From: Thysanoteuthis rhombus
Lineage: Eukaryota; Mollusca; Cephalopoda; Oegopsida; Thysanoteuthidae
Length of the DNA: 64,000 bases
Direction: 5' to 3'
NCBI GenBank assembly: GCA_963457665.1
Contig: OY735207.1
Coordinates: forward strand, 59,192,113-59,256,112
A program made the translations under genes and the position numbers. The notes below the pieces were generated by a model. That model had not been told where the DNA came from. It was given only the letters and a program-made list of their open reading frames with translations, and searched no databases. Shown here in pieces: positions 4,884-40,702 of the stretch; position 1 is the first letter of the stretch, and each line of letters begins with the position of its first letter.

Positions 4884-5839
4884 CATGGATGCCAAATCAG
4901 CCATTCATCGGTTAGATCTAGCCATTTTCCCCGTATTTAGCTGAGAGAAATTTGCAATAGCAGTTAACCAAAAATAACGCCATTTAAAAAAATAATTTGA
5001 GAATTCAATTTTATAGCCAACTCAATATTAATATTTTTAGCTCCAAGGTTGGCTGGGGATGGGGACATTTCAGCCATTTTTTTTAAGTCAGCCAAAAGAA
5101 ATGAAACTGTATGAGAAAGAAAAATATTTTTATTATTTTCATCACTGGGGTTCCATGAAACTTACCTTTTGATTTGAGAATATTTCATGAGTTTGATACT
5201 CCATTTTCGATCGTGAAATTTCGTTCAATTGAAAAGGACGCTTTTCATGCGACACCGTTTTTGCTTGTACCCGGTGTCGACGGAGATTTCTTGTGTTCAA
5301 TTTATTTAATGTATTATTTAGTCAATTTTTCATTGTAAAGTAAAATAAAACTATTTTTTGTATTCATTACATCTTGTAAATAAATGATTCAAACTATATG
5401 ATATTATATATGAATGATTAGATAGGTATATTATAAAGTTTCATTTCATGTTGTCATTGTTTACAAATGTTTTTTTAAATCTTGTTAATAGATAATTAGA
5501 GAAATATATTATAATCTTACAATTATTATCGTTATGGTTCCTATACTATGTTTTAAATTGAATACAAAAGCTCCTTAGCTTTGATAACGGAATAAAAAGG
5601 TAAAATTAAAATCATCTATCCTAAATCAACGAAAATTCATGGTCGGGAATTCAACGTTTGTATTAAGAATGAATGCACAATTATTTTTTCTGGAACATCA
5701 GATATCTTATTTGATTATTGGGCTATATACGCGTGAAAAACATTTTTAGCCATAAACCTAGCTAAAAGTTGGAGAGTTTCAGCCAATTCTATAGCAGTTT
5801 TAGCCGGAAAAAACATATATGGGTTGGCAACACTGACTG
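4884..5839. mobile_element. Probable non-autonomous DNA transposon upstream of first exon A
   Basis: The left edge reads CATGGATGCCAAATCA and the right edge, reverse-complemented, reads CAGTGTTGCCAACCCA: terminal inverted repeats of about 16 bp with a shared TGCCAA core. The interior has repeated TAGCC/TTAGCT motifs and no coding capacity. Related sequence recurs in inverted orientation at about 12725-12960 (gatttggcatccctg on +), and shorter related stretches lie at 7283-7345, 18270-18345 and 40495-40565. Three of these abut the conserved non-coding first exons, so the element probably sat upstream of the ancestral zinc-finger promoter. I found no convincing target-site duplication, so the boundaries are approximate. 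Confidence 0.5.
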
Positions 5840-5939
5840 ACACTGCTAAAATCACCGAACAGATTATCGCAGTAAATCTATATCCATCCCATCTTTTTCA
5901 AATACAGAAATTACCAAAATCTATTTATTTGATCATTTT
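5835..5939 (+). other. Non-coding first exon of zinc-finger unit A, with splice donor
   Basis: This short block is one of four related copies (also ending at 18477, 18905 and 40702). Shared words include gattatcgcagtaaat, atcccatctttttcaaata and gatcat(c)tt, followed by a donor GTAAGTATTTAAAGCTTTA at 5940. Each copy lies about 2.6-4.2 kb upstream of an exon full of C2H2 fingers that begins with a matching acceptor. The simplest reading is the 5' UTR exon of the gene. The exon's 5' end is unknown; the left edge given is where inter-copy similarity begins. No long open frame crosses it. Confidence 0.6.
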
Positions 5940-6539
5940 GTAAGTATTTAAAGCTTTATTTAACTAACAGACTTCAAGAATTAGTGACAAAAATCAGCTT
6001 TTTAATAACCACCTTCATATACGATAATACTTAACTCATTCCTTATTTGTGCCCTCCTCGCCAAATTTTATTAATCACAAACAAATATATAATTTGTTAT
6101 TGTTTACTTGGTGAAATAACCATTTATTCTTTTTTATTCTTCATCTCTCACTTTATTGTTTATCGTCAGAATTCATGCAGAATAATTGAGTTGATTTAGT
6201 TTGCAATACTTCAACATGAAAAATCCCATCAGTTTCAGGCATGAGTTTGGAGAAAGAAGGAATGACATCAAATGAAATTATCCAAGCAGAATTTCCCTGT
6301 TTACTTACCTTTCATACATAGAATTGTACGTTAACAGGCCATTTCGCCCAATCTATTTGGACCTAATTATTATGCATGCTATGGTTGGACTATTTTCCTC
6401 ATCTATGTCTTATTTTCACTGTTTCGGCCGTGTATCCCCTGAAGTCTTAGACGAGGGAATGTATTCCCACCGTATTTACATAATAATTATTACACCCCGT
6501 CCATTCATACGATAACTATAAGGAGTCATTCAATTATTA

Positions 6540-6542
<3 letters not shown>

Positions 6543-6588
<46 letters not shown>
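6543..6588. repeat. (AT)n microsatellite
   Basis: An uninterrupted TA dinucleotide run inside the intron of unit A. Confidence 0.95.
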
Positions 6589-6589
<1 letters not shown>

Positions 6590-6818
6590 GAGGGGTCACA
6601 TTTTACTCGACATTGCATTACACGCTGGTAAATAGAAAATGATTGCTCCTAGCGGTGATCACCCAAATTAGTTCCTTTTCTATACTGTTAGACTAGTTTC
6701 GGGTGTTTCCAGGGGCATTTCGGCGATCATCCGTAACGGTTGCCAGCGATGTCATGTATGAAAGATCGGAATAGTCTGAAACAATTAAATATCACTGACA
6801 GGATTATACCATTTGTTA

Positions 6819-6826
<8 letters not shown>

Positions 6827-6881
<55 letters not shown>
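6827..6881. repeat. (AT)n microsatellite
   Basis: A second long TA run, about 240 bp after the first, in the same intron. Confidence 0.95.
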
Positions 6882-6883
<2 letters not shown>

Positions 6884-9521
6884 TCCAAAATTTCAACTCA
6901 TTGAATTAAAACAGGTATTAGCAACAAAATTAAATTAAAAGAAATATCAGAGACTGGAACAACATCGGATGTATTTATATATCGATTTATCGGGCACTAG
7001 TATCATCTCTGGTGGGTGGAAATCTCACAGTGTACTAAACCATGCGGTTGTTAATCATAGAAGTCATTTGTTAATCCAAATGTTCACACTGCGCATATGA
7101 ACACCATTGACAGCAACTTGATCTAACATTGAAAAGTTAATTCTGAAAAATGCAAGGAACATCAAGATCATTGTGAGAATCATATTTGTACGAGTGTATA
7201 TTTCCTCAAAGTTTTTCAGATAATGTTTTTATGAGTTTCATTTCTTGGATTTATTTCTCACTAATATACTCATTAAAATTAAAGATTTAGCCGATATTAG
7301 CCAATTCTTGTTTCAGTTTTAACCGAAAAAACAGTGTTTACCTTGTGCTATTCATGATTTTCACAAAACTTACTGAGTTACTTCTAATATAAATTGTGGA
7401 GGCATTACTTTTCATAGCACCAACCCTTAATTCATTTGGATTGCCTACACAAGTGGTGCAGCTACATTCAGTTAGAATTGAATACATCCAAAAAATTTAT
7501 CAAAATCAGTCAATTGATATATTTTTGGTGGATTCAGAAAATGTGTATGAAAATATAGCTGAAATTCAGTCAAGATATACTGCTTTTATGGTGGTTACTT
7601 CTAATTTGCAAAATGTAAAGAAGTTTAAGCACAATTGTTTTCAAATTTATTCCGGCCGCAGAAATGACTTCCTTAGTGGAAGCAATCCATCTTCTATCTA
7701 ATAGAACCCAAAGTTTTATTATGATAAAATTGATAGCTTTCAAGTTTCGGGTCTTATGTCAACACCTGTTGCATTTTATCCAAAGCCACAAATAATCTCT
7801 AAAAGGTGAAGGAGAATCTCCCCATCCATTATACTGGAACGTAATAAGTGTCTGATAGAGCACTATATTTTGATATCATGCAGGAGTTTATAATAAGAAT
7901 GCATAGAAACTTAGAATCAAAGTTTTTAAATCTATTTCCAAGTATTTTGACTACATGATTCACTTGAATTCTACACAAAGTTGAAGAGCATTGATTTCTC
8001 TGCAAACTCCAGTTGGTTTGATGGCAATATTTGATGGGGCAGATCCCCCAAACATTTTTTTCTTCAATCACTTCATTCTGCACTCAATGAAAAATCGGAC
8101 AGTGGCTGTTTTGGCCCTTTGTATGAACATAAATTGAAATTTGCTTTCAAATTCTCTTAAGGTCGAGTGATGGAAAAAAAGATATCAATAGATTGAGAAT
8201 TGAATTTTTTCATTATGGCATGCATAACACTCTTGTATTAGAGAACATGGAGATTGAACATTCTATACAAGATACCAGGATGATGGGCATACCTGAAGCA
8301 TTTTTACATTTAATTCCCTTCATCTTGTTATTGCAATGAGAGTTTTGACATTGGAATTCCTACAGATATGCCTGGATCAGAGTTCTAAACATACCAATAC
8401 ACATATTTTCAATGTTCTGTTTAAAGAAAAATTGTGCCTAAACTGTTATGAATTCTTTGAAAACTGTGGCCAAAAAGTTTACATCCATTTTAGGGGGCAT
8501 TTGTATGGAGAATTGAGCATCAGATGTCGCAATTACGTTTTACATATATTGTAAATGAATCACCCATTTTAGAGCCAATTTACTCATTACAACTAAAAAA
8601 GTTTTTTCTCGAAAACAAAAAAGAAACTAAAAGAGCATTTCATTCTACATTTGGAAAATGTTTTTGTAATGATTTTGTCAACTTTGATTAAATAATCCTA
8701 ACAATGTCAAGTTTTCTGTGTACCTCCGAAGATACATAGACATCACTTTTTTGGTACTAATTTACAATTGGATCACTATGAACTATTGGATTTTGCTCAG
8801 ATTTTCTGTATAAAGTTGCAAGAATGAAATAGTTACCGCATAGAATACAAAATTCACTGAAAAAAAACTCTTAAAAATGCAACAAAAAACTTTCCAAAGA
8901 GAAAATATTATAGTTTGATAGCATTCCTTATTTTCCAGATCAGGGCCAATTTTCAAAAGATAGTCAAATAAAATTTTAACTGATTCAATTTCTCTATGGA
9001 CTTATCTTGATATAAGAATGTCAATATTTTTGACTTGTAAAACATATTTTATTGTAATTTGATGAAATTGAAAGAGGGTGTGACTTAGAAAAAATATTTT
9101 CATAAGTTTTACAAAATACCCATTTCATGAGAAAAATTATTTCAAAATTGAATAATTACTGAAAGTTTTATTGAAATTGTATTGTATTGAAATGAGTATA
9201 TTTTTGATGGAATTTCATAAATTATGTATAAATTGGGTTGAATTTTCCTCATAGAAATGTCTAGGACTTATTTCAGACACAGAATTGAAACCAGTAAGTA
9301 CATGTTTGTTTTACAATGAAAACTTTACATAAATTTGTTTGATAATTCAGGAATAGATAATGGGAATTTTAACAAATTTGTTTCTGTATGAGGTATCAAA
9401 TTTGTGTATATATATTGAATGCATCTGTGCTTATTGAAATACAGTGTCAGTTTCATATAATTACTGATTTCTGAAATTGTTATTCCATTTTTTAAACTCA
9501 ATTTTTTTATATTTTTTCTAG

Positions 9522-9732
9522 ATTTTTCTCCCTAAAAAAAATTCAGTAAATCTGAATGGATCATTTTCTTGGACACCTGGAACAGAATATATTAAAATCT
9601 ACTCAGAAAAATGTATAAATTGTCTGTTATTTCAATTTAAAAAAAAAATACTTGATACAACCTGGGGAGAAATCATTTGCTTGTGCGGTGTGTGAATCTC
9701 GTTTATCATCCTAATCATATTTCAGCTGCAAT
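9522..9732 (+). other. 5' part of zinc-finger exon A with a short upstream frame
   Basis: The exon starts after the AG at 9520-9521. An ATG at 9556 opens a 20-codon frame beginning MDHFLGHLEQ and ending in TAA at 9616-9618, in the same frame as the finger ORF. The same start region occurs in units B (MIRHFLGDLAQ), C and D (MIHHF.GDLA). Between 9663 and 9732 is a decayed first finger (CAVCES...) with an in-frame stop, directly before the first usable ATG at 9733. The upstream ATG is therefore probably the ancestral start, now cut off. Confidence 0.6.
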
Positions 9733-10602
9733 ATGCAAAAACACACTGGAGGGAAGCCATATTCTTGTGAAGAATGTGGCTTTTCCTTTTCCCAGAAGTC
9801 AAAATTGAGCCGACATATGCGAATACACACTGGAGTGAAACCATATCCTTGTGAAGTGTGTGGCTCTTCCTTTTCTGAAAAGTCCACCTGGAGAGTACAT
9901 ATGCGGGTACACACTGGAGAAAAACCATATTCTTGTGAAGTCTGTGACTTTTCCTTCTCTGAGAAGTCAAAATTGAGCCGACACATGCGAACACACACTG
10001 GAGAAAGACCATATTCTTGTGAAGTCTGTGGTACTTCCTTTTCTGAAAAGTCAAAATTGAGCCGACATATGCGAACGCACACTGGAGAGAAACCGTATTC
10101 TTGTGAAGTGTGTGGCTCTTCTTTTTCACAAATGTCACACTTGGGCAAACATATACAAACACACACAGGAGAGAAGCCATATTCTTGTGAAGTATGTGGC
10201 TCTTCCTTCTCTGAGAAGTCAAGCTTGAACCTACATATGCGAACACACACTGGAGAGAAACCATATTCTTGTGGTGTGTGTTGCTATTCCTTTTCTAATA
10301 AATCAAACTTGAACCAACATATACGAACACACACCGGAGAGAAACCATATTCTTGCAAAGTTTGTGGCTCTTCCTTCTCTGAGAAGTCAAAATTGGGCCG
10401 ACATATACGAATACACACTGGAGAAAAACCATATTCTTGTGAAGTGTGTAGCTATTCCTCTTCACATAAGTCAAACTTGAACAATCATATACGAACACAC
10501 ACTGGAGAAAAACCATATCTTTGTGAAGTGTGTGGTTCTTCATTTTCACGGAAGTCAGATTTGAGCATGCATATGCGAATACACACTAGTGAGAAACCAT
10601 AG
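9733..10602 (+). CDS. C2H2 zinc-finger protein A, 10 fingers
   Basis: The 289-residue frame is almost entirely tandem C2H2 fingers (C-x2-C-x12-H-x3-H) joined by TGEKP-type linkers, the classical architecture of nuclear sequence-specific DNA-binding proteins. There are 10 fingers of 28 residues. Helix contact residues (-1, 2, 3, 6) include QSKR, ESTV, ESKR (three times), QSHK, ESSL, NSNQ, HSNN and RSDM. Finger 2 has Trp in place of the core Leu, and finger 9 lacks the core Phe, so both may fold poorly. No KRAB, BTB or other effector domain is present, and the start is set at the first Met after a stop in a decayed leading finger. The stop at 10600 falls in the linker after finger 10, and decayed fingers follow. 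It may encode a short DNA-binding protein or be an early pseudogene; the target is unknown. Confidence 0.8.
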
Positions 10603-10830
10603 TCTTGTAAAGTGTGTGTCTCTTTGTTTAGCAAATATTACGCTTGAGAAGGCATATACAAATGCACACTGGAGAGAAATGTCTTTATTATGTGTGTGGC
10701 TCTTCATTTCATGGAACTCATATTTGAGGGTTTATATGCAAACACTGAAGAGAAACCATATTCTTGTGAAGTGTATAGCTATCCTTTTTCACAGAAGTCA
10801 TATTTGTGCCAACATTTACGATCCATAATT
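10603..10830 (+). pseudogene. Decayed fingers 3' of zinc-finger protein A
   Basis: After the stop at 10600 the finger pattern continues for about three more units with frame changes and lost cysteines; the last is recognisable as EEKPYSCEV near 10747-10775 and the SQKSYL helix near 10792. The ancestral array was therefore longer than the present 10 fingers. Confidence 0.75.
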
Positions 10831-11330
10831 TTGTGCAGCATTTGATTATTTTTTTTGTTGCAAAGGAATTAAATTTGGTGCAACATATGCAATCATACAC
10901 TAGTAAGAAATAATATCCATTTCTAGCATGCAGATATTTTAGTGAACATACACCTGCAAGTTTCCAAATTTGTGAATTTTCATTTCCACTCAATTCAGCC
11001 TCAGCATACATATCTGAAGAAATATTGAATATTAACCATATTTTTGTAAAAGACTACTTATCAAGATTAAATGCTCAAGTTGGTATGATTTGAGATATTC
11101 ACATTTAGATGGAAAAAAATGAATTTTTTATAAGATTTAAGATTCCTCATTGCTATATAATGTGATCTCTTTCTATATTAACTGTGATGAGAATGTAGCA
11201 AAAAAAGGCATACACAAAGAATTTGAAAAATATTTTTGTTGGGAAAAAGCATGTGTAGTGTCTGTCTGTATATGCATTTTGGAGGTGAGGTAAAGCATAA
11301 TTTTCTCTATCTAAATAAAGGTCTATGAAT
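10831..11330 (+). other. Shared 3' UTR of unit A with candidate poly(A) signal
   Basis: A block near 10955-11010 (agtttccaaatttgtgaatt...) recurs after unit C (25885-25940) and unit D (47758-47810). Further on, AATAAA at 11314-11319 sits in the context aataaaggtctatgaat, repeated almost exactly in unit C (AATAAA at 26943-26948). Conservation between two units makes this the best candidate polyadenylation signal. That role is inferred. Confidence 0.5.
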
Positions 11331-12724: not shown

Positions 12725-12960
12725 TGGCTAAAATTGTTTAGATCTGTCCCACTTTTAGCTAACTTGATTGCCAGAAATATTAAATATATTTGTTTTATGC
12801 TAGCTATAAAGTAAAATTGAATCAGCCAATTACTTATTTATGAAATGGACAGATTTTTGGCTGTCTATCGCAGATTTTTATTGTCTAAATAGGAAAAAAA
12901 TCACTCAGACCTAGCCAAAAAATAGTTGATTTGGCATCCCTGTTTTCACTCAATAGCATG
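12725..12960 (-). mobile_element. Partial copy of the TGCCAA-ended repeat
   Basis: Reverse-complemented, this begins CAGGGATGCCAAATCA and continues with TAGC-rich sequence like that at 4884-5100. Only one end is recognisable. Confidence 0.45.
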
Positions 12961-13592: not shown

Positions 13593-13618
13593 ATAGAGAG
13601 AGAGAAAAAGAAAGAGAG
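13593..13618. repeat. (GA)n-rich simple repeat
   Basis: An agagagaga-rich stretch of low complexity. Confidence 0.8.
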
Positions 13619-18329: not shown

Positions 18330-18477
18330 CTATCTATCAAGCCCGAATATGAAGGACGCTAGGCGAATGACACCGCCCTTGACAAACGTTGAACGAAACC
18401 TCGCCGTGGATCCATCCTAATCCATTCCACGTTTTCCAAACACAAAAACCATCAAAAGTTACGCATTTGTTCATCTT
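18330..18477 (+). other. Non-coding first exon of zinc-finger unit B (copy 1), intact donor
   Basis: Aligned by eye with 5835-5939 and 40565-40702: shared words near the 3' end (atccatcc, ttttccaaacacaaaaacc, gttacgcat) and an intact donor TTGTAAGTATTTAAAG with GT at 18478. It lies about 3.06 kb upstream of the acceptor of the unit B finger exon. The upstream edge is where similarity to the other copies starts. Confidence 0.55.
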
Positions 18478-18779
18478 GTAAGTATTTAAAGTTTTATTTT
18501 AGTAATTGACTCGTATAAATAGTGACTAAATTAGTATTTTTTTTCTCGATGATATTTACCTAACTCTAACACTGTTTATTGTTGAATAATTGAATGAATT
18601 CCATGGGCGATAGTTTCGGTCTGTAAGTTTGCTGTTTATTTCTAATCACTGCTTCTCACAACAGATTGGATTGAGATATATCTTACCAAATCAAAAAAGG
18701 ATATAATTTTTTTTTTTTTTCGACATTTGTAGTTTGGGACCTTAATTTAGCTCTAAAGATTGAAGAGTTGGCTAGTTGT

Positions 18780-18905
18780 GATAACACTGGACGCAACGCT
18801 AAAGACACTTCCTCAAGCATTGAATAGATTATCGCAGAAAATCCTAATGGATCCCATCTTTTACAAATACGGAAATCCCTTCAGTTCGCTCATTTAATCA
18901 TTTTG
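18780..18905 (+). other. Second first-exon copy in unit B, altered donor
   Basis: This copy (caacgctaaagacac, cctcaagcattgaa, gattatcgcag, atcccatctttt) is clearly related to 5835-5939 and 40565-40702. Its donor reads GTGAAG at 18906 rather than GTAAGT, probably weaker. The intron that should follow is interrupted 20 bp later by a 1.29-kb inverted-repeat element; sequence equivalent to the start of the other introns resumes near 20214. Unit B thus has two candidate first exons in tandem, suggesting a local duplication or fusion of two units. Confidence 0.55.
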
Positions 18906-18925
18906 TGAAGATAGAAAACTTGACG

Positions 18926-20213
18926 GCTCTTCGTGTGAAGCCGGGCCCGGACCTAGACCATAAAATTTCCTTACGAAGAATTACACCGGTGTTATATGAA
19001 AAAGTATGCTCCTTCATATCCATCACCGTTGTATGGATTCATTATTTTCGTCAATATAATATTAACAATCAAAAATAATTCCGTCGTATTGATGAAATAT
19101 GTTCGTGCCGTAAAAAAAACTTTTTAAAAAATCAAATGTCAATCTGCCGTTCATTGTGCTGTTGGACTGCGTGATGTCTGAAGTAATTTTAATTTAAGCA
19201 AACAATATATGACATACTTGATGCAAAATATTTTTTTTTAACAATTTATCACACCGGTGCTATAGTGAAAATTGTTATTGATTGTTTCATCATTCATAAC
19301 TTTAGGTGAGACTTTTGGAAAAAAAACTTTTCGGAAAATAAAGAAGTGTGAATCAAAAAAAAAAAAAGAAATTGAAAATCAAGAAGAAAAAATTGAAATT
19401 CAAATTCAAAAAAGAACTAAGATGTGTGAAAATGATGGTATTTCATTTTAATGAATATAAATACACCTTATGAACAAAGACAATCCATTCAACAAGATCT
19501 CTCGTTAGATGAAAATTTGTTATGCAAATAATTAAATCTATGGGATTTCAGTAGTTTGTTCCCAATGAAGAAATCAGACCCCTAAAAAATTTATCAAATT
19601 CATTATGAGATTCCTTCATTGTGAGAGATATCACTTTTCATATGAATTTAGTTTCAATGAATAGGACAAAATTTTGTATTAAGTTTGGTATAAAAGTATT
19701 GTTAACTATTGCATTGTTTTGGATTAGATAAGTATTGAATACTTTGTAGCTTTCTAAACAATTCAATTATTCATTTAGTGTGTGAAATATCATTTGTTTA
19801 AATCAAAATAAAATGATAACATGCTTGTCTAGCAGCCAAAGTGTGACGGAATTATTGTTTTGTATTGAAAAAATTATTTTTGTTAGATTTATTGTATATT
19901 TAGTATGTGAAATATTGTATATCTAAATTAAAACTTTTGATAAATTAGTTATAAAATATTGTTTGTTTCAATTAAAATTATGTTGATAATACATCTAACA
20001 GCTATGAATATGATAGATTGTTTAATTTTTAAAATGTTTTAATTGCAGCATGAACATATTTCATCAATACAATGACAGAATTGTTTTTATTTGCTCAAGT
20101 TAAAATTATTTATGTCCAAAACAATGAATATAATGGAGTTTTCCTCTATAACCAGTTGTGATTTCATAAGGGATTTTTTATGTGTGTCTGGGTCTGGCTT
20201 CTTTCAAAGAGCC
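18926..20213. mobile_element. Non-autonomous DNA transposon with long terminal inverted repeats
   Basis: The left end (GGCTCTTCGTGTGAAGCCGG) and the reverse complement of the right end (GGCTCTTTGAAAGAAGCCAG) match. Similarity extends inward about 170-190 bp: the left arm near 19090-19113 (attgatgaaatatgttcgtg) pairs with the right arm near 20047-20070 (catgaacatatttcatcaat). Arms diverge at perhaps 25-30 percent by eye. The interior is AT-rich and non-coding, with repeated tgtgaaatatt...tttaaat motifs. No clean target-site duplication was found. It lies in the intron of unit B, just after the second first-exon copy. Confidence 0.65.
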
Positions 20214-21538
20214 AGTTTTATTTTATCAATTGACTTTAACAAATACTAGTAACCAAATCAGGTTTTCTAGTGGCCACTTCATATAAAATAATACTTAACC
20301 CATGCTCAATTGGATCCCAGAAAAGAGCCAATCTTGAGATTTATTAAGGAAGGAAAAGTGCCCATCAAAACACAATTAGCCCATCGTATAGCTCCTGGGA
20401 AAATTTTGTAAGGTTTAATTGAAAAAAAACATCTGACACAACTTAGCAAAAGTGGTCCTTAATGGAATAGTGGCAGAGTTACAACATCATAACTTGGTTT
20501 CCAGTTCCTAACTCTAATTCTAATACTTAAAAACAATAGGGAAAATTTTGCTTGTTTCTTTTTCCATTAACTTTTTGGTTATTTTGATTGCAATTTTGCT
20601 CAGTTTATTATTATAGGACACCCAGTTTATACTTATCAAGAAATTTTGATAACTTATAGTGATTTTGACTGCTTTTGAATTAGTTTTTCTCTCTGGAAAT
20701 TTGAGCTGACAAATCCACACATCTGTTACATCACTGTTCAGAGCAAATGATGTCTTACTTATTGAAAAATATTGAGTTTTAAAAATTTTAATAAGGCTAC
20801 TTTTTCAAAGAGAATTTTGATTTTTTTTTTTAATTACCTACAATACATTTCCTCAGATACTGTAGCACATAATTCAGAATCGTGATTTATCTCCCCTTGT
20901 ACTTATCAACAGGTGTTGAAAGGATGTTGATAAGCTGTTGACATTTCCTGTCATCCATTAAAAAATCTAAAATTACAAACAAAACCCACTGATAGTAGAT
21001 ATGGTAGGGGAAGGTATAAACTCTGATATTTTACCTTTGAACTTTATTCAGGCACCACTGCTGGTAAATAAATGCATTTTTTTGCTAAATTCTCTATGGA
21101 AAATAAGCAATATTTTTCTCCAAATCAAGTCAATTGATTATTAAATTGATCAATTTTCTCTAAATCAAAATTCTTTAAAACTCTCCTCCAAATCAAGTTA
21201 ATTAATCATATAATTGACTAATCAAAATTCTCTGGGGCCAGTCCCAATTTGGAAGAATTTTGAACCTGACTTTCTGATGACAATTATGACATCAATTGTA
21301 GCAGAATCAGTATTTTTTGAGGCAAATTCATAAAATTATCACAATGGGAAAAACGCTCAATCTCAAATATTTCAAAACATTTTTGGTCACAAGTAATAAT
21401 TAAATTTTTTTTTTTTGTATAAATATTCAATTGAAGTTCGAAAATTTTAACTAAAACATAGCATAACAATAATAAACCCTAGCAGTTCATATAATCCGCT
21501 GATTACATAACTATATCTGTTAAATTTTTTATTTCCAG
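20214..21538 (+). other. Rest of unit B intron up to the acceptor
   Basis: The first ~90 bp (agttttattttatcaa...aataatacttaaccc) matches intron sequence just after the donor in unit A (5953-6035), showing that the inverted-repeat element interrupted this intron. The remainder is AT-rich and non-coding. It ends with a polypyrimidine tract and the acceptor atttccag at 21531-21538. Confidence 0.55.
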
Positions 21539-21708
21539 ATTTTTCTTCCCACCAAAAAAATAAATTGGAGAATATGTATGATTCGTCATTTTCTTGGTGA
21601 CCTAGCACAGAAGATATTGAAAATTACTCAGAAAAATATTGTTCTGGAGACTGAATGTAAATTGTCAGAAAATTCACTCACTGTGAAGAGTAACCATGTA
21701 TTTGTTGG
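21539..21708 (+). other. 5' part of zinc-finger exon B with upstream frame
   Basis: After the acceptor an ATG at 21578 opens an 83-codon frame (MIRHFLGDLAQKILKITQKN at its start) that overlaps the first fingers in a different frame and ends at 21829. Its start matches the upstream frames of units A, C and D. In the finger frame, a stop in what was an EEKP linker lies just before a decayed first finger. Translation of the fingers would need the ATG at 21709 or 21754. Confidence 0.6.
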
Positions 21709-23283
21709 ATGTGTGAATCTCCTTTTTCGTTTCAATCATATTTCAGCTACAATATGCAAAAACACACTGAAGAGAAACCATATTCTTGTGAAGTATGTGG
21801 CTCTTTGTTTTCGAAAAAGTCAAATTTGAAAGCTCATATGCAAACACACACTGGAGAGAAACCATATTCTTGCGAAGTGTGTGGCACTTCCTTTTCTCAT
21901 AATTCAAACTTGAAACGACATATGCGAACACACACTGGTGAAAAACCATATTATTGTGTAGTGTGTGGCTCTTCCTTCTCCGATAAGTCAAACTTGATCC
22001 ACCATATGCGAACACACACTGGAGAGAAACCATATTCTTGTGAATTGTGTTGCTCTTCTTTCTCTACTGAGGCAAATTTGAGGAGACATATGCAAACACA
22101 CACTGGAGAGAAACCATATTCTTGTGAAGTGTGTGGCTCTTTATTTTCACAGAAATCTGCCATGAGTCAACATATGCGAACACACACTGGAGAGAAACCA
22201 TATTCTTGTGAAGTGTGTGGCTCGTCCTTTTCACTGAAGTCTACTATGAGTCAACACATGCGAACACACACTGGAGAGAAACCATATACTTGTGAGGTGT
22301 GTGGATCTTGTTTTTCTAATAAGTCAAACTTGAACAAACACATGCGAACACACACTGGAGAGAAACCATATTCTTGTGACGTGTGTGGCTTTTCCTTTTC
22401 TGATGAATCAAATTTGATGGGACATATACAAACACACACTGAAGAGAAACCATATTGTTGTCAAGTGTGCTGTGTTTATTTTTCTCATGAATCAACCTTG
22501 AGACAACATATGCAAACACACACTGGAGAGAAACCATATTCTTGTGAAGTGTGTGGCTCTTCCTTCTCCAATAAATCAAACTTGAATCAACATATGCAAA
22601 CACACACTGGAGAGAAACCATATTCTTGTGAAGTATGTGGCTCTTTGTTTTCGAAAAAGTCAAATTTGGAAGCTCATATGCAAAAACACTCTGTAGAAAG
22701 ACCATACCATTGTGAAGTAAGTGGATCTTACTTTTCTGATAAATCAGCCTTGAGACGACACATACAAACACACACTCGAGAGAAACCATATTCTTGTGAA
22801 GTGTGTGGCTCTTCTTTTTCGCAGAAATCTACCATGAGTCAACATATGCGAACACACACTGGAGAGAAACCATATTGTGAACTGTGTTGCTCTTCTTTCT
22901 CTACTGAGGCAAATTTGAGGAGACATATGCAATTACACACTGGAGAGAAACCATTTTCTTGTGAAGTGTGTGGCTCCTTATTTTCGCAGAAATCTGCATT
23001 GATTCAGCATATGCGAACACACACTGGAGAGAAACCATACTCTTGCGAAGTATGTAGCTCTTTGTTTTCGCAAAAGTCAAATTTGAAGACTCATATGCGA
23101 ACACACACTGGAGAGAGACCATATTCTTGTGAAGTGTGTGGATCTTGTTTTTTTGATAAATCAAACTTGAATAAACACATGCGAACACACACTGGAGAGA
23201 AACCATATTTTTGTCAAGTTTGTGGATCTTGTTTTTCTGGTAAGTCAAACTTGAACAAACACATGCGAACACACACTGGATAG
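21709..23283 (+). CDS. C2H2 zinc-finger protein B, 18 fingers
   Basis: The 524-residue frame has a degenerate leading finger ([18 protein letters not shown], first zinc His replaced by Asn) followed by 18 tandem C2H2 fingers with mostly perfect TGEKP linkers. Helix types recur: TEANLRR (fingers 4 and 14), KKSNL(K/E)A (1 and 11), NKSNLN(K/Q) (7 and 10) and QKSTMSQ or relatives (5, 6, 13), so the array grew by internal duplication. Finger 12 has lost its second zinc Cys (CEVSGS), and finger 14 lacks one residue in its leading linker region. It is expected to be a nuclear DNA-binding protein with no visible effector domain. The frame stops at TAG TAA (23281-23286) exactly where GAGAAACCA encodes a linker in its neighbours, and fingers continue in the same frame beyond. 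Function is not known. Confidence 0.8.
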
Positions 23284-25150: not shown

Positions 25151-25700
25151 TTTTTCCTTCCCCCCCCAAAGATATTTTGTGGAATCTGAATGATTCATCA
25201 TTTCCTTGGTGACCTAGCATAGAGGATATTGAAAATTACTCTTTGAAAATATTGTTCCGGAACCTGTAAATGTAAATTGTGTCTGATAATTCAATTTTAA
25301 AAAAACACTTGACTGTACATCTTGAAGAGAAACCAGGTATTTGTAAGGTGTGTGCCTCTCATTTCTAATTTCAATCATATTTTAGCTACAATATGCAAAC
25401 ACACACTAAAGTGAAACCATATTGGTGTTAAGTATGTGGCTCTTCTTTTTCTGATAAATCAACCCTGATTAGACATATACAAACGCACACTGGAGAGAAA
25501 CCATATCCTTGCAAAGTGTGTGAATCTTCCTTCTCTGATAAGTCAAACTTGAACCATCATATGCAAATACACGCTGAAGAGACACCATATTCTTGTGAAC
25601 TTTGTAGATTTTCTTCTACACGGAAGTCGCACTTGAGCTGACATACACAAACACACAAAGGAGTGAAACCATATTCTTGTGACGTGTAATTCTTCCTCTC
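25151..25700 (+). pseudogene. C2H2 zinc-finger unit C, disrupted
   Basis: An acceptor (ttttttgtag) ends at 25150 and the exon begins like those of units B and D, with the upstream frame MIHHFLGDLA followed by a stop. The decayed first finger has the same in-frame TAA as unit D. Three to four fingers follow ([23 protein letters not shown]), interrupted by several stops and a lost Cys codon in the first finger; the array ends by about 25700. The first two fingers match fingers 1-2 of unit D. No first exon is found between unit B and this exon, because the duplicated segment starts inside an intron. It is very likely dead. Confidence 0.85.
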
Positions 25701-31165: not shown

Positions 31166-31450
31166 AAAATTGGAAACACTTAACTCCCTAATCCCCCCAA
31201 AAAAATATTCAGAAAATAAAATAAGAAAAACATGAAATTAGCAAAATTGGACTCACTGATCAATTACATAAAAAGAATCATCAAATCTGCAATTCTGGAC
31301 TCAGAGATTTTTTAAAAATTAAATTAAAAAACCTAGATTTATGATACTGGACTTGCAGTTTCAAGAAGAAAATTAAAAAGGCCTAAATTTGCAATACTGG
31401 ACTCACAAATAGAAAAAATTTGACAAAAACATCAAATTGGCTATACTGGA

Positions 31451-31838: not shown

Positions 31839-31839
31839 A

Positions 31840-32030
31840 GTAGTTGCCATTGAAGCACATCAACCCCAACCAAAGCTAGTGATGTGGCTGGGCCTTTTGG
31901 GGCTGAAGACCAAGCAGGAACAGGCGGTGTAATTTTCTTTGCGCAAACCATTGGGAGTGTTAGGCCATTCCCTGCCATACTGATCCATGATGTGTTGGTG
32001 GGGTACTGACATCACTAGTTCAAAAAAAAT
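31840..32030. other. Unidentified non-satellite sequence inside the array
   Basis: Between the LINE's truncated end and resumed satellite lies about 190 bp of less AT-rich sequence (ctgggccttttggggctgaa and neighbours). It does not match the LINE copy at 52647 or the satellite. It may be a short retroelement or a passenger joined to the LINE during insertion; no family is recognised. Confidence 0.4.
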
Positions 32031-33082
32031 CTTTGAGTCTAGTATTGCGAATTTGATGGGGTTTTTTATTTCATTTTTTTGAGGTTTTGAATTCAATATT
32101 GAAAATTTAAGGGTTTTTTTTGTTGCTCTTTTTTTTATCTAATACTGGAATAACTGATTAAAAAAATTGAATTATAAAAATCCCTAAATTAGCAAAACTG
32201 GACTAAGAAATTCTAAGAATAATATAAAAGAAACTTCAAATTTTCATTACTGGACTCACAGATTCAAAAAACAAAATAGAAAAACAAAACCCTGAATGTA
32301 CAATACTAGATTCAGACATTCAAAGAATTTTTTTTAAAAACATAAATTCGCAATACCGGACTCACAAATTGAAAATATTGTATAAAAAGGACACCTAAAT
32401 TTGCATTACTGGATCCCCCCCCCAAAAAAAAATGAATAAAAAAAAAACATTTATGTATTCAATACTGGATTCCAAGATTCAAAAAGTTGGATAAAAAAAA
32501 ACCTAAATTTGCAATGCTACTCTTCCAAATTCAGAACATTGAATGAAAAAACTCCCATGCAGGTTTAAAAAATTGAATGAAAAAACACCTAAATTTGTAT
32601 TACTGGACTCCTAAGTTTAAAAATTCACATACATACTAGATATAGTTTACTTACATACTAGATATAGTTGAAATATTGTACTCCCAAAATTGGAAAATTG
32701 GATATCAAAACACCTAAATTTGCAATACTGGACTCCCTAATTCGAAAGGTTCAATCATTCCTACCCCTTAATTTGCAATGTTGTACTTCCAAAATTAAAA
32801 AATTGGATAAAGAAAAAACATATAATTTTGCATTCTGCACACCTGATTAAAAAAAACAAAAAAAAAACACCTAAATTTGCATCACTGGTTTCATAGATAC
32901 AAAAAATCAAATCTAAAAATCACCTAAATTTGCATTACTGGACTCCTGATTTCAAAATATTGAATTTAAAAAAATGCCAAAATATGCATTTGTGCTCTCC
33001 CAAATTCAAAAAATTTAATGAATAAACCTATATTAGCAATTTTGGATGCCTAAATTAAGAAAAAATGAATTTAAAAAAACAC

Positions 33083-33725
33083 CTAAATTTGCAATACTGA
33101 ACACCAAAACTCAATAAATTGATAATAAAAAAACACCTAAATTTGCAATACTGAACACCCAAACTCAATAAATTGATAATAAAAAAACACCTAAATTTGC
33201 AATACTGAACACCCAAACTCAATAAATTGATAAAAAAAAACCACCTAAATTTGCAATACTGAACACCCAAACTCAATAAATTGATAAAAAAAACACCTAA
33301 ATTTGCAATACTGAACACCCAAACTCAATAAATTGATAAAAAAAAACACCTAAATTTGCAATACTGAACACCCAAACTCAATAAATTGATAAAAAAAACC
33401 ACCTAAATTTGCAATACTGAACACCCAAACTCAATAAATTGATAAAAAAAAACACCTAAATTTGCAATACTGAACACCCAAACTCAATAAATTGATAAAA
33501 AAAACCACCTAAATTTGCAATACTGAACACCCAAACTCAATAAATTGATAAAAAAAAACACCTAAATTTGCAATACTGAACACCCAAAATAAATAAATTG
33601 ATAAAAAAAAACACCTAAATTTGCAATACTGAACACCCAAACTCAATAAATTGATAATAAAAAAACACCTAAATTTGCAATACTGAACACCCAAACTCAA
33701 TAAATTGATAATAAAAAAACACTTA
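33083..33725 (+). repeat. Satellite array 1: about 12 tandem copies of a 52-55 bp monomer
   Basis: The monomer starts acctaaatttgcaatactga and continues acacccaaactcaataaatt then gataataaaa. Copies differ mainly in the length of the A run (six to nine) and one has AAATAAATA in place of CTCAATAAA. Homogeneity is very high compared with the flanks. Confidence 0.95.
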
Positions 33726-33970
33726 AATTTGTATCACTCAACTCACAGATTCAAAAAATTGAATTTAAAAAACACCTAAATTTTCATTATTGGACTCCCA
33801 AATCCAAAGATAAAATTTTAAAAATACCTAGATTTGCAATATTTGACTCCCAAATTCAAAATATTGAATTAGAAAAACTCCTAAATTCGTATTACTGGAC
33901 TCACAGGTTCAAAAAATTGTACAAAAAATACCTAAATTTGCATTAATAGAATACCTAATTCAAACTATTG
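33725..33970 (+). repeat. Degenerate monomers joining the two satellite arrays
   Basis: Four to five diverged monomers (ggactcccaaatccaaagat, ggactcacaggttcaaaaaa) lie between the 54-bp and 108-bp arrays and are intermediate in sequence, supporting a common origin. Confidence 0.8.
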
Positions 33971-36900
33971 AATAAAAAAACACCTAAATTTGCATCACTG
34001 GACTCACAGATCTAAAAAAATTGAATTAAAAAAAATACCTAAATTTGCATTAATAGAATATCCAATTCAAACTATTGAATAAAAAAAACACCTAAATTTG
34101 CATCACTGGACCCACAGATCTAAAAAAATTGAATTAAAAAAAAATACCTAAATTTGCATTAATAGAATACCCAATTCAAACTATTGAATTAAAAAAACAC
34201 CTAAATTTGCATCACTGGACCCACAGATCTAAAAAAATTGAATTAAAAAAAATACCTAAATTTGCATTAATAGAATACCCAATTCAAACTATTGAATAAA
34301 AAAAACACCTAAATTTGCATCACTGGACCCACAGATCTAAAAAAATTGAATTAAAAAAAATACCTAAATTTGCATTAATAGAATACCCAATTCAAACTAT
34401 TGAATAAAAAAAACACCTAAATTTGAATCACTGGACTCACAGATCTAAAAAAATTGAATTAAAAAACATACCTGAATTTGCATTAATAGAATACCCAATT
34501 CAAACTATTGAATAAAAAAAACACCTAAATTTGCATCACTGGACCCACAGATCTAAAAAAATTGAATTAAAAAAAATACCTAAATTTGCATTAATAGAAT
34601 ACCCAATTCAAACTATTGAATAAAAAAAACACCTAAATTTGCATCACTGGACCCACAGATCTAAAAAAATTGAATTAAAAAAAATACCTAAATTTGCATT
34701 AATAGAATACCCAATTCAAACTATTGAATTAAAAAAACACCTAAATTTGCATCACTGGACCCACAGATCTAAAAAAATTGAATTAAAAAAAATACCTAAA
34801 TTTGCATTAATAGAATACCCAATTCAAACTATTGAATTAAAAAAACACCTAAATTTGCATCACTGGACTCACAGATCTAAAAAAATTGAATTAAAAAAAA
34901 TACCTAAATTTGCATTAATAGAATACCCAATTCAAACTATTGAATAAAAAAAACACCTAAATTTGCATCACTGGACCCACAGATCTAAAAAATTTGAATT
35001 AAAAAAAATACCTAAATTTGCATTAATAGAATACCCAATTCAAACTATTGAATAAAAAAAACACCTAAATTTGCATCACTGGACCCACAGATCTAAAAAA
35101 ATTGAATTAAAAAAAATACCTAAATTTGCATTAATAGAATACCCAATTCAAACTATTGAATTAAAAAAACACCTAAATTTGCATCACTGGACCCACAGAT
35201 CTAAAAAAATTGAATTAAAAAAAATACCTAAATTTGCATTAATAGAATACCCAATTCAAACTATTGAATAAAAAAAACACCTAAATTTGCATCACTGGAC
35301 CCACAGATCTAAAAAAATTGAATTAAAAAAAATACCTAAATTTGCATTAATAGAATACCCAATTCAAACTATTGAATAAAAAAAACACCTAAATTTGAAT
35401 CACTGGACTCACAGATCTAAAAAAATTGAATTAAAAAACATACCTGAATTTGCATTAATAGAATACCCAATTCAAACTATTGAATAAAAAAAACACCTAA
35501 ATTTGCATCACTGGACCCACAGATCTAAAAAAATTGAATTAAAAAAAATACCTAAATTTGCATTAATAGAATACCCAATTCAAACTATTGAATAAAAAAA
35601 ACACCTAAATTTGCATCACTGGACCCACAGATCTAAAAAAATTGAATTAAAAAAAATACCTAAATTTGCATTAATAGAATACCCAATTCAAACTATTGAA
35701 TTAAAAAAACACCTAAATTTGCATCACTGGACCCACAGATCTAAAAAAATTGAATTAAAAAAAATACCTAAATTTGCATTAATAGAATACCCAATTCAAA
35801 CTATTGAATTAAAAAAACACCTAAATTTGCATCACTGGACTCACAGATCTAAAAAAATTGAATTAAAAAAAATACCTAAATTTGCATTAATAGAATACCC
35901 AATTCAAACTATTGAATAAAAAAAACACCTAAATTTGCATCACTGGACCCACAGATCTAAAAAATTTGAATTAAAAAAAATACCTAAATTTGCATTAATA
36001 GAATACCCAATTCAAACTATTGAATAAAAAAAACACCTAAATTTGCATCACTGGACCCACAGATCTAAAAAAATTGAATTAAAAAAAATACCTAAATTTG
36101 CATTAATAGAATACCCAATTCAAACTATTGAATTAAAAAAACACCTAAATTTGAATCACTGGACTCACAGATCTAAAAAAATTGAATTAAAAAACATACC
36201 TGAATTTGCATTAATAGAATACCCAATTCAAACTATTGAATAAAAAAAACACCTAAATTTGCATCACTGGACCCACAGATCTAAAAAAATTGAATTAAAA
36301 AAAATACCTAAATTTGCATTAATAGAATACCCAATTCAAACTATTGAATAAAAAAAACACCTAAATTTGCATCACTGGACCCACAGATCTAAAAAAATTG
36401 AATTAAAAAAAATACCTAAATTTGCATTAATAGAATACCCAATTCAAACTATTGAATTAAAAAAACACCTAAATTTGCATCACTGGACCCACAGATCTAA
36501 AAAAATTGAATTAAAAAAAATACCTAAATTTGCATTAATAGAATACCCAATTCAAACTATTGAATTAAAAAAACACCTAAATTTGCATCACTGGACTCAC
36601 AGATCTAAAAAAATTGAATTAAAAAAATACCTGAATTTGCATTAATAGAATACCCAATTCAAACTATTGAATAAAAAAAACACCTAAATTTGCATCACTG
36701 GACCCACAGATCTAAAAAATTTGAATTAAAAAAAATACCTAAATTTGCATTAATAGAATACCCAATTCAAACTATTGAATAAAAAAAACACCTAAATTTG
36801 CATCACTGGACCCACAGATCTAAAAAAATTGAATTAAAAAAAATACCTAAATTTGCATTAATAGAATACCCAATTCAAACTATTGAATTAAAAAAACACC

Positions 36901-37652
36901 TAAATTTGCATCACTGGACCCACAGATCTAAAAAAATTGAATTAAAAAAAATACCTAAATTTGCATTAATAGAATACCCAATTCAAACTATTGAATAAAA
37001 AAAACACCTAAATTTGCATCACTGGACCCACAGATCTAAAAAAATTGAATTAAAAAAAATACCTAAATTTGCATTAATAGAATACCCAATTCAAACTATT
37101 GAATAAAAAAAACACCTAAATTTGCATCACTGGACCCACAGATCTAAAAAAATTGAATTAAAAAAAATACCTAAATTTGCATTAATAGAATACCCAATTC
37201 AAACTATTGAATTAAAAAAACACCTAAATTTGCATCACTGGACTCACAGATCTAAAAAAATTGAATTAAAAAAAATACCTAAATTTGCATTAATAGAATA
37301 CCCAATTCAAACTATTGAATAAAAAAAACACCTAAATTTGCATCACTGGACCCACAGATCTAAAAAAATTGAATTAAAAAAAATACCTAAATTTGCATTA
37401 ATAGAATACCCAATTCAAACTATTGAATAAAAAAAACACCTAAATTTGCATCACTGGACCCACAGATCTAAAAAAATTGAATTAAAAAAAATACCTAAAT
37501 TTGCATTAATAGAATACCCAATTCAAACTATTGAATAAAAAAAACACCTAAATTTGCATCACTGGACCCACAGATCTAAAAAAATTGAATTAAAAAAAAT
37601 ACCTAAATTTGCATTAATAGAATACCCAATTCAAACTATTGAATAAAAAAAC
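33970..37652 (+). repeat. Satellite array 2: about 34 copies of a 108-bp dimer, with higher-order repeat
   Basis: Each 108-bp unit has two related halves: cacctaaatttgcatcactg...gatctaaaaaaattgaatt and tacctaaatttgcattaata...aactattgaat. Diagnostic variants (tttgaatcactggactc with acatacctgaattt) recur near 34425, 35397 and 36153, and an aaaaaatttgaatt variant recurs near 34988, 35960 and 36716. The first spacing is 972 bp (9 units) and the second 756 bp (7 units), so a higher-order repeat was copied and then shortened. As 108 is divisible by 3, chance frames of up to 102 codons run through several units wherever TAA has become TTA; these are not genes. Confidence 0.97.
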
Positions 37653-37840
37653 TTCTCGATGTGCAATACTAGACTCATAGGTATGAAAAATTGAATAATC
37701 AAACAATTGAATAAAAAATCACCTGAATTTGAATTAATGGGCTCCCAAATTCAAGAAATTGAATTAAAAAACACCTAGATTTGTATTACTGTATTTCAAA
37801 ATTAAAAAAATTGAATAAAAAATCACCCAACTTCCGTATC
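37652..37840 (+). repeat. Satellite block, degenerate right flank
   Basis: Three to four diverged monomers (cttctcgatgtgcaatacta, cacctgaatttgaattaatg, cacctagatttgtattactg) follow the homogeneous array before unique sequence begins near 37835. Confidence 0.8.
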
Positions 37841-38440
37841 TTGACCTATTATTCTTGTCAAATATTGATAAGCACAGAGAACTCTTTGAAATGCACTTGG
37901 ATACAACATCTATTTATCTTCATACTGATGATCTAAATATTCTAACTTCATCACTCTCTTTTAAAGATCCATATCTTAGGTCACAACCACAAAGCAGTTG
38001 AATTTTGACCACCAATTTAGTGCTGTCAATAATGCTGACCATTCAGTATGAAAGGCATTAATAATTAGTCATGCAAATTTTTGTCTTATCGATTCACAAA
38101 AAATTGTCAGCAGTGCAAACAGGAACATTATGGTCTCCTTAAATTATGTAGTGCATAGAGACATATAATTTCAAGAAGACATTTTGTCTTGATAACTCAA
38201 ACAGTATTTAGATGGCACGTACAGTGTAATGACTTAATTATTTTAGTTTACTGTATTGTTATAGATACAGAAGCTCAAATCTAGCTAAGGATACAATGAA
38301 TTACTTTTAGCTCTTTCCTATAAAAGCCTTAAACTTTTCTGTATTTTTACCTTTTGGTTTCCATATTCTTTGCTAGTTAACTTATTTCTCTCTTAATTTG
38401 ACTTACTTCAGTAAGCGCATATGGGTTATATTTGCTTGAC
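37840..38440. other. Sequence between satellite and LINE, no gene
   Basis: AT-rich sequence with no recognisable open frame or repeat family. Confidence 0.5.
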
Positions 38441-39110
38441 GAAGATCATGTGCAAAAAACCACATCGGAGATAAAAACACCCAAAATCAAAATCGAGGAC
38501 ACAACTGGAGAAAACAGATCACTACATCTACCTACAACAACAAATCTCCATGAAACCTTCAAAAGAGGAAGAAATCAAGTGAAGAATCACACTAGGATGG
38601 CAAGCCTTTGGCAGAGCAAGCTCAACCTTTAAAAATAAGAAGATCCCATTAATCTTAAAAAGAAGGGTGTACAACCAATGCATCCTCCCAATAGTCACTT
38701 ATGGAGCTGAAACATGGAACTTAACCAAGAGACAGACCTTCAATTTGAGAAACATGCAATGTGCACATAAAAGAATTATGTTGGGCCTCACATAGAGAGA
38801 CCACAAGACTGTACAGTACATCTAGAAGAAGACAGGAGTCAAGGACATCATAGAATCCATTAAAAATCTCAAATGGCAGTGGGCTGGCCATGTCGCAAGA
38901 ATGGCAGACAACCGATGGACATCGCGATTCACGACATGCATCCCCAGAAATCACATGCGCAACCGAGGCCTGGCAGTATATTAGATGGAGAGATGAGCTA
39001 GACAAATTCAGGAAGTACTGGCTCCGCAACGCCCACAATAGAGAATTGTAGCAAATCCTGGGGGAGGTCTATATCCAACGACGGACGTTGAAAGACTACT
39101 GATGATGATG

Positions 39111-39150
<40 letters not shown>
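38441..39150 (+). mobile_element. RTE-type LINE, 5'-truncated 3' fragment with (GAT)n tail (copy 5)
   Basis: It starts at the codons equivalent to KMKIMCNNH in copy 6 and runs through the end of the reverse transcriptase ORF to a long (GATGAT)n tail at 39105-39147. Several frame shifts and stops interrupt the coding part; 38432-38632 and the following text show shifted pieces. The long, nearly pure tail suggests replication slippage after insertion. Confidence 0.9.
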
Positions 39151-40490
39151 GAATAGTCACCCTGATATGCGTTTTTATCCATGTTGAGAATGGCCCTCAA
39201 GTTTGCCTGAGGCGATCATAAATTAGGGTGCGTCACTATGCTTCAGAACTTGGCCATAACACCGAATTTTCCTGTTTTCAATTATAACCCTAGTCTTTGA
39301 AGCAACTTCTTCTTACAGTACCCCTGCATATCGTGGCCAAAACAGCGATTAGATTACCCACTCCAATCTAACACTCATCTTTCCATCTTCTTTACTATTC
39401 CTGCTAGTTAAAACTAACAAAGAATTCTCGTGCAGCAGAGAAATCACAACTGTCGCTCCTAAAATGTTGCAACATAGTAATCTTTTCTAATTTGGCCAGC
39501 TCAATCACAATCGATCTTTCGATTATATGTTTCACTGTACAAATAAAAAAACATTGAAATTGAGAAATGCGTATATGCTTGTCACTATACCTCCACCTTC
39601 AGTTATGAATGGTGGAAATTGATGATTTCAATATTTATGTAATATAAATTTATTGAAATTTGAAATGTGTAATGATATATATATATATATATAATGGTTA
39701 TAATTGGAAGAAATGTATATTCACAGACGTCCATTTTGAATTTCGGAATGTCAACCCTTAACAATCGAAGAAAAACTAGCAATATTTTTTTTTAATTCGG
39801 GTGGTCTTTCGACATGATTTATCTTTCTCACAAACATTCTAGACCTCAAAAAACGAAATCATAAAAAATGTGCCAGAGACCGTTTGTTCCCTGAAAGATT
39901 CAGACAATTCAAGATTATTTTCACCGCAATTTTGGTTGTAAAAATTGGTGAAGTTTACGTGGACATCCTATGTTCGAGTATGAATTTTCAAACTAAACAA
40001 TGAACCACAGTAGGACTCCATTACAAACGCAATATAATTCTGCTGCCAGTGATACTTGTAGTTCAACAATTGAGTTGGCCAGAAGCAAGGTTCATATTTT
40101 GGCAATTTTATGCCCCACTTTGACAAATCCGGCTTTTGTAAAAACCATTTGGCCATGAACTTTTTGGTTTGGTCATATTTCATTTTGGCCACTTGACTTT
40201 TCTGTGGATATGTTCTTACTTTAGGGGTTTACTCCATTTAATCCAGGTCTTATAAACAATTAATATTAATTTTTCAAACGCCTATTTACTTTCACATAAA
40301 TTTTTCGGTTACTCTTTATAATTGCAACTTTCATCATACTAAGGGTCTTCACCGTAAAGTTGTTATAAAAAGCAAGTGAAAAATTAGGTGTGAAGGTAAA
40401 TAGTTCGTGGTATTTTTTTCCATTAATACTGATGAATGACTTTCGATACTTCCTCTTAAAAAATAAACTATAGAAAATGGCTGATAAATA
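39150..40490. other. Intergenic sequence upstream of unit D
   Basis: No gene is recognised. There is a short (AT)n run near 39676-39693. Small frames near 39968-40192 and 40266-40645 have no domain. Confidence 0.5.
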
Positions 40491-40494
40491 ATTT

Positions 40495-40565
40495 TGGCAA
40501 TACGCCATCTGTGGCCATTTTCTGTGTGTTTTTGGCCAGAAATCTCTCCACCTGTCTGGCAACCC
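40495..40565. mobile_element. Remnant of the TGCCAA-ended repeat beside first exon D
   Basis: gccatctgtggccattttct...gtctggcaaccctg closely matches 18283-18345 and resembles the right end of the 4884-5839 element. It directly precedes the conserved first exon, as in units A and B. Confidence 0.5.
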
Positions 40566-40702
40566 TGTGGAGAAGTAGCAACAATTGGACGCCAGGCTAA
40601 CGATACCGCCTCAAGCAACAAAGAAACTATCGCTGTAAATCCCAACTCATCCCATGTTTTTCAAATACAAAACCCACCGAAGGTTACGTATCCGATCATC
40701 TT
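40566..40702 (+). other. Non-coding first exon of zinc-finger unit D, with splice donor
   Basis: This is the best-preserved copy by eye: gccaggctaacgataccgcc, tcaagcaacaaagaaactat, cccatgtttttcaaatac and the donor ATCTTGTAAGTATTTAAAGC (GT at 40703-40704). It lies 4.17 kb upstream of the acceptor of the 27-finger exon. No long open frame exists, so a 5' UTR role is inferred. The transcription start is not visible. Confidence 0.6.

Follow-up and report, generated by a model that had tools for sequence, protein, structure and literature searches.

Vertebrate clustered protocadherins carry a short shared promoter element before each unit, and their coding variable exons are spliced to common final exons; in mammalian KRAB zinc-finger genes, the upstream exon is coding and specifies KRAB. 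The element described here is a repeated block, made up of a putative non-coding exon 1, its 5' splice site and the start of the following intron, which lies ahead of C2H2 zinc-finger exons in a 64,000-nucleotide stretch of the Thysanoteuthis rhombus genome (contig C10:59192113-59256112 in the 2.73-Gb assembly; hereafter the window). The block is probably the region in which transcription of a subset of the duplicated C2H2 genes starts. A repeated shared promoter element would be a point of likeness with the protocadherins, but each unit here has its own finger exon. Mammalian KRAB genes, in which one or more upstream exons are spliced to a single finger exon (PMC10547256), have the upstream-exon-plus-finger-exon layout that is predicted for the units here. 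The KRAB family was not among the Pfam matches listed for the window finger exons, in a scan confined to those exons.

The zebrafish FiNZ genes (FZNF), a close parallel, form a large C2H2 family, mostly of recent duplicates, with an upstream exon and a finger-array exon. Their first exons are so alike that 447 of the 684 genes were predicted targets of a single morpholino (PMC10547256). Exon 1 of the zebrafish genes codes for the FiNZ domain, whereas exon 1 here is apparently untranslated.

Among coleoids, 2785 C2H2 genes have been reported in one squid, and squid chromosome 15 is C2H2-rich with a protocadherin cluster at its other end (PMC9068888); expression of cephalopod C2H2 genes is associated with nervous tissue (PMC12513265). 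A first look at the present genome gave 17,878 candidate C2H2 fingers, and among the best 150 scored many lie on C17 at 49-62 Mb, no other contig having a larger group. Protocadherin-type open reading frames (ORFs) numbered 293 candidates, of which the best 150 scored are nearly all on C17 at 17-46 Mb, so that this C2H2-rich chromosome also holds a protocadherin supercluster. The finger numbers and the supercluster resemble those of the coleoid C2H2 expansions, and this is very probably one of them. The extracted accounts of coleoid C2H2 genes cover counts, clusters and expression, and make no mention of a shared first exon or promoter module; nor was a description of one found in the extracts of the literature surveyed (PMC12513265, PMC10547256, PMC9068888, PMC13218726), and an earlier publication of it is possible. 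Judged from sequence, the feature is ordinary in kind: a shared, apparently untranslated exon 1 with promoter-proximal sequence, carried by a subset of C2H2 genes.

Putative exon 1 blocks and finger exons in the window

Alignment of the window sequence showed the four related blocks that the initial annotation had reported, three of which end exactly where it placed them (5939, 18477 and 40702) and the fourth at 18904, one base before the 18905 given. The donor GTAAGTATTTAAAG follows 5939, 18477 and 40702, and the fourth block has GTGAAG after 18904, both as described. Polypyrimidine tracts with acceptors were likewise found right before 9522, 21539 and 44868, giving predicted introns of 3582, 3061 and 4165 bp (2633 bp from 18905). 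Each of the four blocks had been taken to head a finger unit; three units have an intact head, and the fourth block is a relic. The observation that a repeated putative exon 1 and donor heads finger units was confirmed, with the features of the three units as follows (a slash marks an exon boundary).

5810..5939, plus strand: unit A, putative non-coding exon 1 (alignment and hidden Markov model (HMM) match; putative 5' end at about -130 from the donor)
5940..6134, plus strand: unit A, 5' splice site GTAAGTAT and intron start (by position within the conserved island; the 36-copy profile declines past about +195)
9522..10602, plus strand: unit A, exon 2, acceptor TTTTTTCTAG/ATTTTT; 5' untranslated region (UTR), then 10 C2H2 fingers; end at the open-frame stop
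18348..18477, plus strand: unit B, putative non-coding exon 1 with intact donor (alignment, HMM; 5' end putative)
21539..23283, plus strand: unit B, exon 2, acceptor TTATTTCCAG/ATTTTT; 17 fingers; end at the open-frame stop
40573..40702, plus strand: unit C, putative non-coding exon 1 with intact donor (genome matches; 5' end putative)
40703..40897, plus strand: unit C, 5' splice site and conserved intron start (genome matches, conservation profile)
44868..47409, plus strand: unit C, exon 2, acceptor TTTCTTCCAG/ATTTTT; 27 fingers; end at the open-frame stop

In all three units every finger, counted with the expression C..C.{12}H.{3,4}H, falls within one downstream exon, as it would in a two-exon poly-C2H2 layout, the 10, 17 and 27 fingers each lying in a single open stretch. 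The unit C array (45082-47409) contains long, near-identical multi-finger internal repeats, as if recently duplicated internally.

Copies of the block in the genome and the fingers downstream

The genome search proposed in the initial annotation, with 40566-40702 as the query, returned 23 matches including the query itself, the best other match having an E value of 1.8e-20. A longer query (40480-40920) gave 389 candidates, the best 40 of which, after scoring, lay on 9 contigs, with 20 on C42 and 7 on C10 (two being the window's own). A 32-nt pattern centred on the donor, with up to 3 mismatches allowed, matched 105 places and its reversed control none; the 100 matches listed are spread over 19 contigs. 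After removal of 8 rows from 7 duplicate loci, and with an intron-only fragment (window 20214) set aside, the donor GT was present in all 37 donor-anchored copies and GTAAGT in 35 of them. Counts of motifs and ORFs given below refer to 33 copies unless another number is stated; these leave out the relic together with three further copies, partial or extra.

Outside the window, downstream DNA was covered for 20 copies, comprising 16 of the 38 non-window similarity matches, over a stretch of about 1.5-7.5 kb from the block and to about 14.5 kb for five that were initially without fingers, and 4 of the 105 pattern matches. The initial 1.5 kb downstream of the blocks is finger-free, and in 19 of the 20 copies a multi-finger C2H2 array follows on the same strand at about 3-11 kb. 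Among the similarity matches this holds for 15 of 16, with arrays of 4-18 fingers (that of L048 reaches the end of its stretch). The four pattern matches, on C2, C11, C15 and C29, are each the sole match listed on their contig and were taken as a separate prediction; each of the four is followed on the same strand, at about 6-7.3 kb, by an array of 7-21 fingers. No antisense multi-finger array was seen in the stretches downstream of the 20 copies, which held one lone antisense finger (C438), and no other intact block lay between a block and its fingers among the 16 similarity-match copies.

Two sequence signals bear on a possible splicing of the upstream exon to the finger exon, namely the conserved donor and a shared acceptor. 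An acceptor profile built from nine acceptors was scored leave-one-out, with the best antisense score (15.7) as the threshold, and 12 of 22 units exceeded that antisense maximum, among them unit C (18.8). The common acceptor has the form ...TTTTACAG/ATGTTCCAGC, and the form seen in the window is ...TTCCAG/ATTTTTC. The predicted joining of block and finger exon is supported by this common acceptor.

A dispersed repeat occurring equally often away from C2H2 exons had been named as the outcome that would overturn the proposal, and the 20 copies gave no such picture. Because of the same-strand arrays in 19 of 20 copies, the four of four isolated matches and the common acceptor, the block is taken to head C2H2 units and not to be a dispersed repeat.

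Since DNA was covered only to 1.5 kb upstream of the blocks, the upstream comparison outside the window rests on coordinates, using the pattern matches listed, 16 of the 40 scored block matches, whose donor positions are approximate, and a single row for each finger locus. Twelve of 38 exon-2-like loci have a same-strand block upstream within 15 kb, all at 2.8-6.7 kb (4 of the 12 pairings are the window's own), against no opposite-strand block upstream and 2 downstream pairings. The reverse test took the 127 top-scoring finger loci and found a same-strand block within 15 kb upstream of 4, a lower bound given strict detection and partial lists; an opposite-strand block lay upstream in 1, and there were 3 downstream pairings. 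A finger cluster on C46 near 31.7-32.0 Mb has no pattern match among the 100 listed. The claim that the block heads zinc-finger units thus holds in the window and elsewhere, but does not extend to the C2H2 family as a whole, a subset of which the module marks.

Shape of the conservation

Mean pairwise identity over 36 copies (one row being unaligned at the donor column) is about 0.32-0.47 in most steps outside a central island. It rises from about -120, stands at about 0.7-0.8 across most of -75 to +135, reaches its maximum of 0.87 at +1 to +15, the donor step, and fades past about +195. A conserved non-coding block with its splice site, as first described, is present, but the likeness continues for about 195 bp into the intron, so that 'first exon and splice donor' is too narrow a description and the intron start belongs to the block.

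Pairwise alignments covered the island in 541 of 561 pairs. Matches beyond the island were found in 40 of the 561, but 16 of these are to another copy of the block within the stretch compared, and several of the 40 are out of register. A single collinear alignment well beyond the island was seen in 10 pairs, as expected from duplication of units. Of 11 hand-picked pairs, 9 show greater likeness in the exon part of the island than over the flank from -300 to -120. For the most part, the pair data fit a copying of whole units in which the island would have changed more slowly.

Predicted promoter-proximal sequence

Early FZNF genes of zebrafish share a promoter architecture with a TATA box, and later ones are without it (PMC10547256). 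In contrast to those early promoters, no TATA cluster was found here, TATAAW positions being scattered in the 33 copies. With as many as 3 mismatches allowed, 12 of 35 copies contain the motif ACTTCCGCAAAATGG, which we take to resemble an ETS site beside a YY1-like core and which starts 122-130 bp ahead of the donor; among the control windows the count is 0 of 330. The YY1-like AAGATGGC, with one mismatch, occurs in 13 of 33 copies and in 1-8 of 33 in ten control windows, a weak signal. At about -139 to -147, TGACGTCA, presumably a site like the cAMP response element, is found in 7 of 33 copies, of which C42 holds 6; ten control windows gave 0 of 33 each. In its place, GGCCA-type and TGGCAAC elements occur in the window copies and in some C10 relatives. 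One upstream stretch of unit C is shared as follows.

40504..40542, plus strand: upstream element GCCATCTGTGGCCATTTTC..TTTTTGGCCAGAAA, common to unit B and partly to C10 copies; subfamily-specific

On these comparisons the upstream sequence is subfamily-specific. The initial annotation had suggested a promoter and 5' UTR module, copied with each unit, that gives the cluster common expression control. A block and donor that head the units were found, but simple common control is not borne out, as the upstream sequence differs between subfamilies. Duplicated genes are also split among co-expression modules (PMC12513265), which together with the subfamily-specific upstream sequence argues against one common control; a common core with differing upstream inputs would fit better.

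Among the 100 listed pattern matches, neighbours less than 3 kb apart form 4 pairs, all of them divergent, with no convergent or tandem pairs. These head-to-head pairs are L064 (C5:9298900-9299800), C42:3114592/3115324, C42:2852686/2854815 and C12:4537908/4539315. The donors of the C5 pair are 301 bp apart and its arms align from about -132 to +92. This arrangement suggests that the head-to-head pairs may act as compact two-way promoters.

The block as a probable transcription start region

From the homology of the copies, the conserved donor and acceptor, and the position and strand of the block relative to the fingers, we infer transcription, a start site, joining to the finger exon, and selection. 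A TATA-less promoter would drive a transcript with an untranslated exon 1 of about 130 nt, which would end at the 5' splice site GTAAGTAT and be joined across an intron of about 3-10 kb to one large exon containing the remaining 5' UTR and all of the fingers. Whole units would have been duplicated with the module carried inside. After these duplications, change in 280-300 bp of promoter-proximal sequence, made up of about 195 bp of intron and the larger part of the exon, would mostly have been slower than in the flanks. The probable reason is that the island is required for splicing, for transcription or by a bound factor. Upstream elements would have diverged or been swapped between subfamilies.

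A number of results weigh against this account. One of the 20 copies followed downstream, C6:13896066, has no fingers within about 14 kb, and only 4 of the 127 top finger loci were paired with a block. Ten of the 22 units fall below the acceptor threshold, including window units A (12.4) and B (15.5); several of the sub-threshold units have polypyrimidine-CAG/ATATTGCAAT or the like. The motif ACTTCCGCAAAATGG is unrecognisable in the three intact window copies (7-8 mismatches), and it was derived from copies in which it was then counted. At +183, 15 of 36 rows have GTAAGT at a second donor-like site, which could serve as another end of the exon; with GTAAGT in 34 of 36 rows at the main donor, it was not adopted as the principal one. 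In two pairs of C10 copies (L013/L015 and L012/L015) the likeness of the upstream flank equals or exceeds that of the island, and because of these 2 of 11 pairs the constraint cannot be called uniform. Finally, 27 of 33 copies keep one exon 1 frame open, where the alignment columns would lead one to expect 24.3, and in that frame 20 of the 33 have an ATG open to the donor, 13 with only five codons and 5 with at least 20.

The two C10 pairs, together with others that are alike past the island, would also be expected if the likeness were due to shared ancestry of duplicated genes only, perhaps with gene conversion, and the block had no function of its own. Against this, the flanks are near background across all 36 copies and the island is not, and identity peaks at the splice site; we regard ancestry alone as unlikely. 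The extent of the island, which reaches from about 90-120 bp on the exon side of the donor to about 195 bp into the intron, could in turn indicate a conserved enhancer, insulator or binding site whose donor-like GTAAGT is unused in splicing. That seems quite improbable, however, in view of the donor being the best conserved 15-bp step, with GT invariant in 37 copies, of the acceptor, likewise a conserved splice signal, that 12 of 22 units have ahead of the fingers, and of an orientation of block to fingers that is fixed among the copies covered.

A coding exon 1, whether for an effector domain of the KRAB or FiNZ kind, for a conserved upstream ORF or for a short peptide at the N terminus, would account for the frame open in 27 of 33 copies, which also has its lowest identity at third positions, and for the 20 copies with an ATG open to the donor. 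The coding signal is weak, however: much the same number of open copies is expected from the columns, the intron shows a similar periodicity, and few copies reach 20 codons. When units A, B and C were joined in silico, no AUG of exon 1 carried into the finger frame, and the finger frames of these three intact units begin at AUGs of exon 2. An upstream exon coding for an effector in frame with the fingers, as in KRAB or FiNZ genes, was thus not found, and a coding exon 1 was rejected as very improbable. Short upstream ORFs do occur, one in exon 1 of unit B and one spanning exon 1 and exon 2 of unit C, and exon 1 is apparently an untranslated leader that may hold a short upstream ORF in some copies. 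A fold of the alignment of the 33 copies gave 0 pairs, and scans of the window returned no Rfam matches and no tRNA.

If the block is indeed a transcription start region, a bolder extension may be put forward as speculation that we think is probably wrong: that selection maintains a single ancestral module of promoter, 5' UTR and intron start across perhaps at least 100 C2H2 genes on at least 19 contigs, head-to-head two-way promoters included, with a single trans-acting factor (perhaps itself a finger protein) licensing the set and upstream elements such as TGACGTCACTTCC assigning tissue or time.

The block offers a handle on how so many similar cephalopod C2H2 genes are regulated. The shared exon 1 with its invariant splice site could serve as a tag for true 5' ends and for units that gene callers may miss, and could sort subfamilies by promoter type. 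One splice-blocking oligonucleotide (junction CATCTT/GTAAGTATTT) could block many members of the family together, an idea that parallels the translation blocker designed for the zebrafish FiNZ genes (PMC10547256).

The relic copy, an inserted element and a decayed exon 2

The fourth block of the window lies between the head of unit B and its finger exon, and its remains are as follows.

18775..18904, plus strand: broken extra exon 1, donor GTGAAG (HMM match 18788-18940; 5' end putative)
18925..20213, plus strand: element inserted where the intron of the 18904 copy starts; its ends are 28-nt inverted arms (75% complementary)
20214..20300, plus strand: rest of the intron island of the 18904 copy (HMM match 20214-20268; end set by eye)
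25152..25439, plus strand: decayed exon 2 copy (76% identity to the start of unit B exon 2; one finger recognised near 25510)

The relic donor, the split intron and the decayed exon 2 leave the window with three intact-headed units, one broken head and one decayed exon 2 copy. Decayed heads such as that at 18904 would be flagged by the shared tag as likely off. By eye, the decayed 5' part of the finger exon (25152-25510) is near that of unit C in sequence.

The arms of the inserted element, at 18925-18952 and 20186-20213, enclose a span of 1.29 kb, and no target-site duplication was established for it. Pieces of this stretch, not the whole, match 26 contigs among the first 40 rows listed, and for this reason it is called an inserted dispersed element. 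That the exon 1 block should itself be part of such a transposable element or dispersed repeat, which happens to sit in finger clusters, has some appeal given its 105 copies (the 100 listed being on 19 contigs), the repeats that do occur within these clusters and the C6 copy, which precedes an ORF without fingers, but is most improbable, with same-strand fingers downstream in nearly every copy followed, its 40 scored matches on 9 contigs (half of them on C42) where the first 40 rows of the inserted element fall on 26, collinear flanking homology in ten pairs, and no ends or terminal repeats of the block seen, without a dedicated search for them.

Other observations

The ORF that follows the C6:13896066 copy (L043 and L057) within about 14 kb is 547 aa long and has a Cys/His-rich start, and in this copy the likeness of the intron, judged by eye, is gone past about +110. 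On the minus strand of the window, 52765-53511 is a reverse-transcriptase-like ORF, with a Pfam RVT_1 score of 29.4 bits, just under the cut-off of 29.6. The region 32001-38000 has a low GC content (about 0.25) and a marked asymmetry between the strands, with a GC skew of about -0.32 to -0.39 and an AT skew of about +0.25 to +0.32.

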